Source of the DNA: a virus
IMG/VR virus record: IMGVR_UViG_3300023174_000465
Coordinates: 1-31,144 of that record
DNA length: 31,144 nucleotides
Direction: 5' to 3' (one strand)
This document shows positions 6,656 to 22,443 of this stretch, piece by piece; positions within the stretch are counted from its first letter, which is position 1; every line of letters starts with the position of its first letter. The notes beneath the pieces were generated by a model. That model was given only the letters and a program-made list of their open reading frames with translations, made no database searches and was not told the DNA's origin. The position numbers and the translations under genes are program-made.

Positions 6656-7855
6656 ATGTCAGACAACACACCAACACAAACCGTAACAGCAGACCCCATC
6701 ATCGCGCAGACTCAGCATGCTCCCGTGGAGCAGAGCTTTGAATCTGTATTGGAACGCCAGATTAAGGCTAAACCAAAGATTGAACGAACCAACCTCAAGA
6801 GCCTTGAGGATCTACCAGATGTAGCCATTCCAGTTCCAGCAGGGATGGATGAGGTGAACACGCAGGAGGCAGACTCATTCCTTAAGCAGATGGACGGGGG
6901 ATCTACAATCGATGAACCCGTTGAGGATAAGAAGCCTTCTTCTAAGCCAGAAAGTAAGACATCCTCTGACTTTGACATCTCTGATTTGGATCTTAGCAAA
7001 GATCCAGAGCCAGTTGAGGAAAAGAGCAAAAAGAAATCCAAAGAGGATAATATTGCAGAGCTTCGCAAGAAGGCAGAGGCTTATGAGGAGTCGCTCAAAG
7101 CCAAGGATACCGAGGTTCAGACTTACCGAGAAAAGCTGGAGAAGCTTGAGGGAGAGCTAGAGCGCACGGCGTTTGAGAAGTCTCCCAAGTTCCGCGAGCG
7201 TTACCAAGCCCCGTATAATACATCCATCGAAAACGCAACTGCATTTGCCGTTGAGTTCACGGATGACGCATCCATTGCTGAAAAGGCTCTCTCGCTAAAG
7301 GGCAAAGAGAGGCTTGAGTTTATTGATGAATCCTTCGGAGGCGGTGCGGCGGCGGCTCAGTTCCTGTCGCTTGTAAATGATGCTGACTCAAAGCGCGGTG
7401 CATTGGAGGGAGCCTTGGAGAATTACAAAGCTACTCACCAAGAGATCGTCGCCTCTGAACAGCAGGAACAATTCAAGACAGTTGAAGCTATCAATAAAAA
7501 CTTCGATCGTGTTGCGGCTCACCTTGCCAACAAGTCTGAGTTCTTCCGCATGACGGGAGATGACGAAAACGACAAGGCTGTTAAGGCTCGTATTGAGGCG
7601 GCCAAGAATATCATTCATGGAAATGCCTCGCAGAACGAGATGACTGTTGCTCCTTTCTTAGCCGTTATTGCAAAGGAAGCCGTGGAGGAGAACGCCAAGC
7701 TCAAGGCGGAGCTTGCCAAGTACAAGAACAGGGCGGCGGCTGATGTGGCGACTCAACCTAGGATCACTCGCGGGTCTTCCGATACCGAGGGTGATACCAA
7801 GGGCAAGCCCAAGTCTGCATTGGATAGCATTAGGTCACAACTGCGTTCATATTGA
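6656..7855 (+). CDS. Scaffold-like protein
   Basis: 399 residues, highly charged, with an acidic, Ser/Pro/Lys-rich disordered N-terminal third (e.g. SDLDLSKDPEPVEEKSKKKS), a long heptad-repeat coiled coil around residues 125-170 (RKKAEAYEESLKAKDTEVQT), a helical middle region and a second coiled coil near 350 (AVEENAKLKAELAKYKNR). The C-terminus is basic (SALDSIRSQLRSY), the usual capsid-docking end of phage scaffolds. These features and its position downstream of the portal fit a scaffolding protein, which shapes procapsids and then leaves. There is no sequence motif that proves it. It is followed by a strong terminator rather than a capsid gene. Its TGA overlaps an ATG at 7855. Confidence 0.65.
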   Translation: MSDNTPTQTVTADPIIAQTQHAPVEQSFESVLERQIKAKPKIERTNLKSLEDLPDVAIPVPAGMDEVNTQEADSFLKQMDGGSTIDEPVEDKKPSSKPESKTSSDFDISDLDLSKDPEPVEEKSKKKSKEDNIAELRKKAEAYEESLKAKDTEVQTYREKLEKLEGELERTAFEKSPKFRERYQAPYNTSIENATAFAVEFTDDASIAEKALSLKGKERLEFIDESFGGGAAAAQFLSLVNDADSKRGALEGALENYKATHQEIVASEQQEQFKTVEAINKNFDRVAAHLANKSEFFRMTGDDENDKAVKARIEAAKNIIHGNASQNEMTVAPFLAVIAKEAVEENAKLKAELAKYKNRAAADVATQPRITRGSSDTEGDTKGKPKSALDSIRSQLRSY

Positions 7856-7864
7856 TGCTTGACA

Positions 7865-7891
7865 GGCTCCCCGTAATTGGGGAGCCTTTTT
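7865..7891 (+). terminator. Rho-independent terminator after scaffold-like gene
   Basis: A perfect eight-base stem (GGCTCCCC at 7865-7872 and GGGGAGCC at 7879-7886) with a six-base loop is followed by five Ts at 7887-7891. It lies nine bases past the stop of the scaffold-like gene and ends two bases before the ATG of the next gene, so read-through would be needed for downstream expression unless another promoter exists. Confidence 0.85.
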
Positions 7892-7893
7892 GC

Positions 7894-8688
7894 ATGAAAA
7901 ATGAATTACCTATTGTTGTCGCTTATGGAGGCGGCACAAACAGCGTGGCAATGCTCTGTGGTTTCTTGGAGCGAGACATTAAACCAGAGCTAATAATCTT
8001 TGCAGATACAGGTGGTGAGCTTCCGCATACTTACAACCATATAAAAATGATGTCTGAAAAGACAATGGAATGGTGGGGGATGCCTATTGAAATTGTTGCA
8101 AAAACATATAAGAAGGAACAAACCTCGCTAGAGTCAGATTGCTTACGGAACAAAACGATCCCGTCTCTTGCATATGGAAGGAAGGCTTGCAGTATGAAGT
8201 ATAAGATTGACCCCAAAAAAAAATTCATGCTGAAGTGGATGGACTCTAGGAACCTCACGGAGATCGTGTCTGCCGTTGGATATGATGCAGGGGAGGGGCA
8301 TAGAGCAGTAGGCATAGAGTCCAATACCTATGGGAAGAACAAGCAGGAAACTATGTGGTATCCGTTGATTGAGTGGATGTGGAGAAGGCCAGATTGCGTG
8401 GATGCTATCAAGCGTCATGGACTACCTCAACCGGGTAAATCCTCATGCTTTTTCTGTCCGTCTATGAAAACTGGAGAGATTCTTCGCTTGAGAAAAGAAT
8501 ACCCAGAATATTTTGAAAGAGCCATCCAACTTGAGAAAAATATGATTGTTAAGGGACGGGTAGAAGGGCTTCACTTTGGAGTAAAGTGGAGTGACATCGT
8601 TTCTGCTGATGACGATCAAATGAAGATGTTTGAATGGCTTGACGAGAATGATGCGGCAAAAATCCCCTGCGGTTGTTACGACGGATGA
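7894..8688 (+). CDS. PAPS reductase/PP-loop ATPase-like phage protein
   Basis: 264 residues from the ATG at 7894. An in-frame ATG at 7855 overlapping the upstream TGA would add 13 residues but reads through the terminator. The N-terminus VVAYGGGTNSVAM (PP-loop at about residues 11-17) matches the adenine nucleotide alpha-hydrolase fold, where the usual signature is SGGKDS; here K-D is replaced by T-N. Further family signs are FADTGGELPHTY, and C185FFC188PS near the C-terminus, a Cys pair seen in many phage relatives of PAPS reductase and DndC. Such proteins activate a substrate by adenylation or reduce PAPS; some act in sulfur-based DNA or tRNA modification. The reaction here is unknown. The stop overlaps the terminase start (ATGA). 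Confidence 0.75.
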   Translation: MKNELPIVVAYGGGTNSVAMLCGFLERDIKPELIIFADTGGELPHTYNHIKMMSEKTMEWWGMPIEIVAKTYKKEQTSLESDCLRNKTIPSLAYGRKACSMKYKIDPKKKFMLKWMDSRNLTEIVSAVGYDAGEGHRAVGIESNTYGKNKQETMWYPLIEWMWRRPDCVDAIKRHGLPQPGKSSCFFCPSMKTGEILRLRKEYPEYFERAIQLEKNMIVKGRVEGLHFGVKWSDIVSADDDQMKMFEWLDENDAAKIPCGCYDG

Positions 8689-10392: not shown

Positions 10393-10408
10393 GGAGGTGT
10401 GATGCGTG
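10393..10408 (+). promoter_or_regulatory. Shared ribosome binding site for two overlapping starts
   Basis: GGAGG at 10393-10397 is followed by ATG at 10402 (four-base spacer, methyltransferase frame) and GTG at 10406 (eight-base spacer, +1 frame embedded ORF). One Shine-Dalgarno could therefore serve both starts, and the second has the more usual spacing. Confidence 0.55.
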
Positions 10409-11160
10409 AGCTACACCTATTTGCAGGAGCAGGAGGGGGAATCCTTGGTGGAATGCTCCTCGGACACACCACAGTTTGTGCTGTGGAAATTGAACCATAT
10501 TGCCGAAGAGTCTTGCTCCAACGGCAACGAGACGGAATCTTGCCAAAGTTCCCAATCTGGGATGATGTCTGCACTTTCGACGGAAAGCCGTGGAAAGGAA
10601 TGGTCGATGTCATCTGCGGAGGATTCCCTTGCCAAGACATCAGCTCTGCGGGGGGGGGGGCAGGAATTTCTGGAGCCAGAAGTGGTTTGTGGAAGGAGAT
10701 GTCCCGAATCATTGGTGAAATACAACCTAGGTTTGCGTTCGTGGAAAATTCTCCATTGCTTGTGGGAAGAGGACTTGCCGTTGTCCTCGCTGACCTTGCC
10801 GAATTGGGGTATGATGCACGATGGGGAGTGCTGGGAGCTAATCATGTCGGAGCTATCCATCATCGAACCCGCTTGTGGTTGGTTGCCTACCCCCGTAGCG
10901 TCGGAAAAGCACGATGGAATGGGAGTGGCTTGGAAATTAGCCAGATTATTCAAAGGAGAGCGCATAGCAAGGTATCTTGGGAAGATTTGGATCAATCGCA
11001 ATTTGCTGGAAAAAGATACAAAGATATGCCCAAACCCTTGCTGGCAGGAATGGAGGATGATGTGGCCTATAAATTGGACCGGATTAAATTCATTGGAAAT
11101 GGACAAGTACCTAGAGTGGCGGCAACAGCATTCAGACTTCTTGCAGAATCAGTAAAATAA
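10402..11160 (+). CDS. C5-cytosine DNA methyltransferase
   Basis: 252 residues. It transfers a methyl group from SAM to carbon 5 of cytosine in DNA, probably to protect phage DNA from host restriction. Motif I LFAGAGGG is at the N-terminus, the catalytic motif IV GGFPCQDIS has C77, motif VI is VENSP (E115, N116), motif VIII is RTRLWLVA and motif X is IGNGQVP at about 231-237. The target recognition region between VIII and X is only about 60 residues, making this a short but common phage form. The start ATG was chosen for its GGAGG; the longer frame to 10267 overlaps TerL and lacks motifs. A run of 11 Gs at 10650-10660 encodes Gly-Gly-Gly just after the PCQ motif. A second open frame covers nearly the whole gene. 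Confidence 0.92.
   Translation: MRELHLFAGAGGGILGGMLLGHTTVCAVEIEPYCRRVLLQRQRDGILPKFPIWDDVCTFDGKPWKGMVDVICGGFPCQDISSAGGGAGISGARSGLWKEMSRIIGEIQPRFAFVENSPLLVGRGLAVVLADLAELGYDARWGVLGANHVGAIHHRTRLWLVAYPRSVGKARWNGSGLEISQIIQRRAHSKVSWEDLDQSQFAGKRYKDMPKPLLAGMEDDVAYKLDRIKFIGNGQVPRVAATAFRLLAESVK
10406..11155 (+). CDS. ORF embedded in +1 frame of the methyltransferase gene
   Basis: 249 residues, GTG start four bases after the methyltransferase ATG and sharing its ribosome site; it stops five bases before the methyltransferase stop. The product is Ser/Glu/Trp-rich and carries ordered motifs that I associate with a recurring class of phage proteins next to C5 methyltransferases: an N-terminus SYTYLQEQ, then SSQSGMM, a SWK segment, LPNWGMMHDGECWEL, GWLPTPVASEKHDG, and a C-terminal block WQEWRMMWPINWTGL followed by WRQQHS. 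That recognition is from memory and was not searched. Apparent conservation could come from conservation of the methyltransferase frame. A 750-base uninterrupted alternate frame with its own well-spaced start favours true overprinting. Function unknown. Confidence 0.45.
   Translation: MSYTYLQEQEGESLVECSSDTPQFVLWKLNHIAEESCSNGNETESCQSSQSGMMSALSTESRGKEWSMSSAEDSLAKTSALRGGGQEFLEPEVVCGRRCPESLVKYNLGLRSWKILHCLWEEDLPLSSLTLPNWGMMHDGECWELIMSELSIIEPACGWLPTPVASEKHDGMGVAWKLARLFKGERIARYLGKIWINRNLLEKDTKICPNPCWQEWRMMWPINWTGLNSLEMDKYLEWRQQHSDFLQNQ
10650..10660 (+). repeat. G11 homopolymer inside the methyltransferase gene
   Basis: Eleven consecutive Gs encode Ala(last base)-Gly-Gly-Gly in the methyltransferase frame and Arg-Gly-Gly-Gly in the embedded frame. 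Loss of one G would join the N-terminal catalytic part of the methyltransferase to the C-terminal part of the embedded ORF. The tract could be a slippage site or a sequencing weak point. Confidence 0.8.
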
Positions 11161-21777: not shown

Positions 21778-22443
21778 TTGTGGCAATGTCAAGCCGTGAA
21801 AATTCTTTCTAATGGAATAGCTGTATTGGATGGGGATTCCCATATTTCAAGGTGGGTGGAGGAGGAGGGTAGGTTGGATCACGACCAGAATGCACTTCCC
21901 CTTATTTTGGGGTATATCAAGGATGGTGATGTGGTGGTGGATGCAGGGGCGTTTATAGGAGATCATACTATTGCTTATACCAAGGCCGTTGGTAAGACTG
22001 GAAGGGTGATGGCTTTTGAGCCTAATCCATCGGCTTATGAGTGCTTGGTTCACAACTGCCCAGAGGCTATGGCATTGAATCTTGGGTTAAGTGACAGGAG
22101 TGAGGAGTTGAAGATGGCTATTGATGTGAATGCTGGTGCGTCTCATGTGGGCGATGGTGGGCAGTCGATTAATGTGGTGGCATTGGATTCCATGCCATTC
22201 CAGAGGTTGAATTTTATAAAGATGGATGTGGAGGGGATGGAATTGAGGGCGTTGTTGGGAGCAAAGAAGACGATTGAGGCTCACAGGCCGATCATGTGGA
22301 TAGAGATTAATGTTGGGGCATTAAAGAGGCAGGGTGTTGTTCCCTCCCAGATATTTGATGTTTTGCATGGAATGGGATATGAATTTGAGCCATATCCAGA
22401 TGAGGGAGGGATGCAGTATGACATCCTTTGCGTTGCGAAATGA
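21778..22443 (+). CDS. FkbM-family SAM-dependent methyltransferase
   Basis: 221 residues from a TTG at 21778, which follows a stop codon and has GGAG a few bases upstream; a GTG at 21796 is the alternative. The SAM-binding motif VVVDAGAFIGDHT (D55) and VMAFEPNP, followed by FIKMDVEGMELRALLGAKKT (D150, E152), are characteristic of the FkbM fold, which O-methylates sugars or other small groups. It sits between an HNH nuclease and a glycosyltransferase-like gene, so methylation of a glycan is the natural suggestion. The stop overlaps the next ATG. Confidence 0.85.
   Translation: MWQCQAVKILSNGIAVLDGDSHISRWVEEEGRLDHDQNALPLILGYIKDGDVVVDAGAFIGDHTIAYTKAVGKTGRVMAFEPNPSAYECLVHNCPEAMALNLGLSDRSEELKMAIDVNAGASHVGDGGQSINVVALDSMPFQRLNFIKMDVEGMELRALLGAKKTIEAHRPIMWIEINVGALKRQGVVPSQIFDVLHGMGYEFEPYPDEGGMQYDILCVAK

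Follow-up and report, generated by a model that had tools for sequence, protein, structure and literature searches.

In Type I systems, catalysis and target choice lie on separate chains, HsdM and HsdS, which methylate adenine. In the multispecific C5-DNA-methyltransferases (C5-MTases) encoded by Bacillus subtilis phages (SPR, phi3T, rho11s), the interval from motif VIII to motif IX holds target-recognition domains of ~38-40 residues that are arranged in tandem and can be exchanged, and module shuffling is a feature of the target-recognition domains of multispecific phage C5-MTases. The small gene of M.EcoHK31I reportedly lies inside the large one and is read in a different frame. In this enzyme the large subunit holds motifs I-VIII and X and the small subunit motif IX, and both are required, while M.AquI is a C5-MTase with a natural split after motif VIII, whose second chain takes in the distal variable region together with motifs IX and X (PMC3404938). 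The methylase of the F1 mycobacteriophage ShiLan contains an out-of-frame HNH endonuclease (PMC11855218).

The locus described here lies in a viral stretch of 31,144 nt (IMG/VR record IMGVR_UViG_3300023174_000465), referred to as the window, and consists of a C5-MTase frame (alpha) and an overlapping +1 frame (beta). It is best read, by analogy, as related in logic to M.EcoHK31I (YGGCCR): in motif layout, without any sequence comparison, it meets the criterion of a large chain with I-VIII and X and a small chain with IX. The two differ in that the predicted target-recognition domain of M.EcoHK31I is on the large subunit, whereas the variable region of window-type loci is modular and selected in the +1 frame. 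With the SPR, phi3T and rho11s enzymes window-type loci share a phage-borne character and tandem exchangeable modules of ~40 aa between VIII and IX, but those enzymes have a single chain and a single frame, and the modules of window-type loci are in +1. The division between HsdM and HsdS is the one proposed for alpha and beta, although there the methylated base is adenine, the genes are separate and not overprinted, and the folds are unrelated. ShiLan likewise hides a gene inside a phage methylase gene, read in a different frame; it is, however, a mobile nuclease insertion and does not overprint a conserved part of the methylase itself. The arrangement of M.AquI resembles that of an overprinted Streptomyces plasmid locus treated below, but M.AquI is not described as overprinted in PMC3404938, whereas window-type chains share most of their DNA. 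Literature searches retrieved no description of this long-conserved overprint.

The overprinted locus

The alpha frame runs from ATG 10402 to TAA 11158-11160 (252 aa, + strand) and beta from GTG 10406 to TAA 11153-11155 (249 stop-free codons, + strand), with the following features.

10393-10397, + strand: Shine-Dalgarno sequence GGAGG, common to both starts, 4 nt 5' of the ATG and 8 nt 5' of the GTG
10402-11160, + strand: alpha, the C5-MTase frame, with motifs I-VIII and X and without IX; residues ~165-226 are an unconserved linker
10406-11155, + strand: beta, 249 aa in the +1 frame from the GTG start, overprinting alpha
10420-10440, + strand: alpha motif I (FAGAGGG), from sequence and alignment
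10618-10635, + strand: alpha motif IV (GGFPCQ, catalytic Cys), from sequence and alignment
10650-10660, + strand: G11 homopolymer within both frames, MTase codons 83-86
10739-10834, + strand: conserved SWK ... LPNWGMMHDG domain of beta, overlapping alpha motifs VI-VIII
10744-10755, + strand: alpha motif VI (ENSP), from sequence and alignment
10858-10884, + strand: alpha motif VIII region (HHRTRLWLV), from sequence and alignment
10883-11032, + strand: beta variable module LPTPVAS..., a putative target-recognition domain, single copy in the window; +1-phase substitutions, modules shuffled in relatives
11033-11086, + strand: beta motif IX (NPCWQEWRMMWPINWTGL); +1-phase substitutions, in-frame copy in a Candidatus Megaera plasmid, IX-X profile match to DRM
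11083-11112, + strand: alpha motif X (IKFIGNGQVP), where MTase-phase substitutions resume

The original prediction had proposed a +1 GTG frame of 249 residues, four bases after the ATG and using the same GGAGG, and these coordinates were confirmed; the segments it had picked out in the product (SYTYLQEQ, SSQSGMM, SWK, LPTPVAS) are all present. It had also regarded ENSP/SWK and RLWLVAY/GWLPTP as frame-shifted readings, and FVENSP/RSWKI and LWLVAYP/GWLPTP do correspond to identical nucleotides read in two frames. Its statement that the MTase frame contains all main C5-MTase motifs stands as regards the C5-MTase identity but fails on the word "all", motif IX being only in +1.

As a single chain, alpha has SAM-binding motif I, catalytic PCQ (IV), an ENV-like VI and RxR VIII. 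It aligns with M.HhaI (E=1.8e-23) and matches PF00145 (E=1.9e-29) at residues 2-179 only, corresponding to profile positions 2-169 of 324; since the match ends there, the C-terminal part, the place of motif IX, is unrecognised. With the match ending at residue 179 and the following region evolving in +1, the alpha chain is without the target-recognition region and motif IX. By motif assignment, the +1 block NPxWVEWLMGWPxGWT is the C5-MTase motif IX that is missing from the window MTase frame.

Searches on beta itself were less informative. Nothing significant was obtained for the +1 product in Pfam and NCBIfam, where the SWK/WPxxGM domain also had no counterpart, PF00145 gave no direct match to any beta, and a +1 profile matched PDB sequences only at chance level. 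AlphaFold2 models were of low confidence both for the window +1 product (pLDDT 54) and for a more typical beta core of 135 aa (pLDDT 62), and Foldseek found no structural match for the low-confidence beta model. Structure therefore weighs neither for nor against the proposed reading.

Selection on the two frames

Overprinting is real at this locus, as shown by the depletion of stops in the +1 frame. Homologous loci for the stop test were collected with the MTase protein alone (78 genes), and synonymous codons were permuted gene by gene so that the MTase protein stayed unchanged; such simulations draw on within-gene codon usage and are thus conservative for stop depletion. One interior +1 stop was observed where 331 were expected, and the +1 interior was open in 77/78 genes against an expectation of 1.4, with no depletion in the +2 and antisense frames of the homologue set. 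For the window gene alone, 0.7% of the permutations leave the +1 interior open. In E. coli, the ordinary C5-MTase gene dcm contains 14 +1 stops, with 19 expected. Across 176 unique genes, +1 stops numbered 48 against 572 expected in I-VIII, 0 against 171 in VIII-IX and 0 against 99 in the IX block. Frame 0 is also free of stops across the VIII-IX filler (0 against 166 expected; 61 genes, partly selected on an open frame), and the maintenance of both frames over the shared region fits a need for two full-length proteins. Third-base identity at conserved 4-fold codons was.44-.49 against.29 expected from composition at 30-60% MTase identity. Conservation of beta is weak in its N-terminal third, which is absent in 17/176 genes, where +1 stops fall within the first 59 codons.

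The phase of substitutions indicates which protein is selected along the gene. Mismatch rates per MTase codon position were calculated for the 176 unique genes; the pairs are related and their rates not independent, and the change of pattern between regions is internal to the same pairs. Rates at positions 1, 2 and 3 were.21/.13/.45 in I-VIII,.35/.18/.15 in VIII-IX and.28/.09/.08 in the IX block, and the MTase-type pattern returns 12 codons past EWLMG (X,.13/.10/.34). Because MTase position 1 is +1 position 3, the +1 protein is the one selected from VIII through IX, and the MTase frame is filler there. The selected frame therefore switches from 0 to +1 and back to 0, namely MTase for I-VIII, +1 from motif VIII through IX and MTase at X. 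Within I-VIII the MTase frame dominates, and +1 has strongly conserved residues near SWK and WPxxGM. In the beta SWK domain, P is kept in 101/105 and W in 95/105 sequences, whereas conservation of the MTase residues in those columns reaches only 0.66-0.76. The C-terminal block of the +1 product keeps E in 101/105, M in 102/105 and W in 99/105 sequences, against 0.58-0.85 for the MTase residues.

The start of beta is conserved as well, with a Shine-Dalgarno spacing of its own. The second MTase codon is AAT in 89 genes and AAC in 3, against 543 AAC and 361 AAT among the other Asn codons; AAT at this place creates the +1 ATG. The +1 ATG or GTG persists where the MTase-frame codon at the site is a non-start (CTA, TTA, CTT), and in relatives an SD-like 4-mer mostly lies 7-9 nt 5' of the +1 start.

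The sequence-based checks suggested with the original prediction came out in favour of the overprint: +1 stops are essentially absent from homologues (a single interior one in 78 genes), the depletion exceeds by far what a fixed MTase protein would give, and third positions are constrained even at 30-60% MTase identity.

Relatives and their arrangement

With the +1 product as query, tblastn matched 40 phage records; in the 12 that were inspected, the match was the +1 frame of a C5-MTase, with both frames open over the core and a stop-rich third frame. Viral contigs were scanned once with the MTase alignment and once with the +1 alignment; each scan returned 80 loci, both frames being present in every locus, and two more viral scans on the +1 sequence gave 97/97 overprinted. 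A +1 frame without MTase was found in 0/257 viral loci of these first four scans. In bacterial genomes, 75/80 loci, from many phyla, were overprinted; of the other five, three are decayed or rearranged remnants (L396, L399, L401), one is cut by a contig end (L426) and one is a reframed variant (L428). Standalone +1 relatives lacking an MTase were therefore rejected, there being none in the 257 viral loci and only these remnant, truncated or reframed cases among the 80 bacterial ones. What survives in L399, L401 and L396 is motif IX/X alone or a C-terminal part present in two frames; these loci are deletion derivatives or rearrangements. In the Flavonifractor locus (L428:2104-3250), IX shares the frame of I-VIII and X is in another, as in a variant or a decayed copy.

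Overall, the overprint (~750 nt) recurs in proteobacterial, firmicute, actinobacterial, bacteroidete and cyanobacterial phages, plasmids and chromosomes. Annotation of the inspected phage records calls one frame or the other, Paenibacillus phage Diva excepted; in this phage, gene 50 (L174:2108-2812), labelled "g49 internal gene" by its authors, is the +1 frame. The +1 product matches PHROG 1008 ("DNA methyltransferase") and PHROGs 26627, 35493 and 27243 (unknown). These four families are the +1 frame as predicted in phage annotations, and their descriptions mention neither overprinting nor a specificity subunit. The +1 product had been likened at the outset to a recurring phage protein beside C5-MTases, and that protein proves to be the same overprinted frame, in PHROG 1008 and the others; that the frame holds motif IX and the variable region of the enzyme it overlaps was not part of the original prediction.

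Motif IX, or IX together with X, shifts between frames among relatives, the total motif set staying complete. The locus of the Candidatus Megaera plasmid (L280:1646-2668) has I-VIII, IX (WVEWLMGYPISWT) and X in one frame, PF00145 spanning the whole protein, and its +1 frame still contains three LPTP modules. In a Streptomyces tubercidicus plasmid (L278:1727-2735), alpha stops after VIII and the overlapping +1 frame has the variable region, IX and X; five viral loci likewise have IX and X in +1. Actinophages (69/80 loci from a single scan) have IX-X in frame 0. The profile of the IX-X block matches plant DRM C5-MTases in the PDB (8.5e-4).

Between VIII and IX, the LPTPxAxD stretch is always in +1, in all three IX/X arrangements, and the actinophage mismatch rates for this region (.36/.15/.11) are in +1 phase. 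The stretch is modular, with 455 modules of median length 39 aa, and the number of xxTP motifs per gene is 0-5 in window-type and 0-6 in actinophage loci. There are 180 module pairs at least 75% identical between alphas less than 70% identical, and module families appear in different orders among relatives. On this basis the LPTPxAxD modules resemble target-recognition domains and are regarded as putative ones.

Readings of the locus

We propose that the locus encodes a two-polypeptide C5-DNA-methyltransferase with overprinted alpha and beta subunits, and place the probability of this reading at roughly three quarters; there are no expression, interaction or activity data. The division of labour between the chains is inferred from the motifs that each carries. 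Alpha, in frame 0, would provide SAM binding and catalytic motifs I-VIII, a filler linker and then motif X, and beta the conserved SWK/WPxxGM domain, at least one exchangeable LPTPxAxD target-recognition module and motif IX, which would organise the small domain. The two would assemble into one active enzyme, with catalysis from alpha and DNA target choice from beta, and starts 4 nt apart behind a single Shine-Dalgarno sequence may allow their co-translation. In the phage, the likely purpose would be the methylation of several sites, protecting the DNA from host restriction. Translation, alpha-beta assembly, the role of the modules as target-recognition domains and any benefit for phage host range or against restriction are all inferences.

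The original prediction had left two readings, a genuine overprinted gene and a shadow open and motif-like merely through conservation of the MTase protein. The first is supported by stop depletion and +1-phase selection. The second could draw on the nucleotides that some +1 motifs share with MTase motifs, and on GC-rich relatives, which chance alone leaves with few +1 stops; it is refuted by the stop simulation and the substitution phase, and can practically be dismissed, as the MTase protein was fixed in the simulation that gave 1 stop against 331, VIII-IX substitutions are in +1 phase, C-terminal block residues are more conserved in +1 than in the MTase, and dcm has its 14 +1 stops. A selected frame that passes from 0 to +1 and back, matching the succession of parts in a one-chain C5-MTase, would also suit programmed frameshifting, in which one MTase is read in frame 0 for I-VIII, then in +1 across the variable region and IX, and possibly back in 0 for X. 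Such an enzyme would have no need of an open +1 frame over I-VIII, where stops are nonetheless depleted (48 against 572), nor does it account for frame 0 remaining open through the variable region (0 against 166, partly conditional on gene selection) or for the conserved start and Shine-Dalgarno spacing of beta. With both frames kept open and this start signal, we judge frameshifting less likely than two subunits and, taken by itself, very improbable.

The remaining alternative, that beta is a separate overprinted protein outside the methyltransferase (e.g. an anti-restriction or regulatory factor), is allowed by the lack of a measured alpha-beta interaction, by a low-confidence beta model unlike the known MTase small domain and by an SWK/WPxxGM domain without a known counterpart. 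It nevertheless remains unlikely, since what alpha is missing, motif IX and the variable region, is precisely what beta has, IX and X change frame in relatives with the total set complete, and beta without MTase was never seen in the viral loci examined.

Should the two-subunit reading be true, many phage genes annotated as "DNA methyltransferase" or "hypothetical" would be corrected, and truncated-looking phage C5-MTases, which may fail if cloned as one frame, would be explained; the locus would also offer a system for measuring two-frame constraint with known protein roles. Annotation of double-stranded-DNA phages and bacteria usually drops long overprints on the same strand, and only a few of these have a function that can be tested; the role proposed here is concrete: the specificity part of the enzyme that the frame overlaps.

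A wider proposal is more tentative, and our doubts slightly outweigh our confidence in it. It envisages a large phage and prophage C5-MTase family with catalysis in one frame and exchangeable target-recognition cassettes in the other, in which specificity would evolve by swapping of +1 cassettes under a fixed catalytic frame, and in which a G9-11 tract, in some members including the window, would render the two proteins phase-variable together. At 10650-10660, the G tract of the window has the look of a phase-variable tract, and a one-base slip in it would fuse the N-terminal part of one protein to the C-terminal part of the other. Tracts of G9-G11 are found at the same site in 13 other loci (L025, L029, L061, L067, L074, L124, L128, L129, L156, L162, L164, L172 and L234). 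A G10/G9 tract in L140 and L362 is directly followed by a break of the MTase frame.

Two genes upstream of the window MTase lies a phosphoadenosine phosphosulfate reductase-like gene (7852-8688, phrog_424). An SGGKDS-containing ORF directly upstream of the MTase remnant in L396 is perhaps of the same kind. A second methyltransferase-like gene of the window is located at 21778-22443 (phrog_8156).
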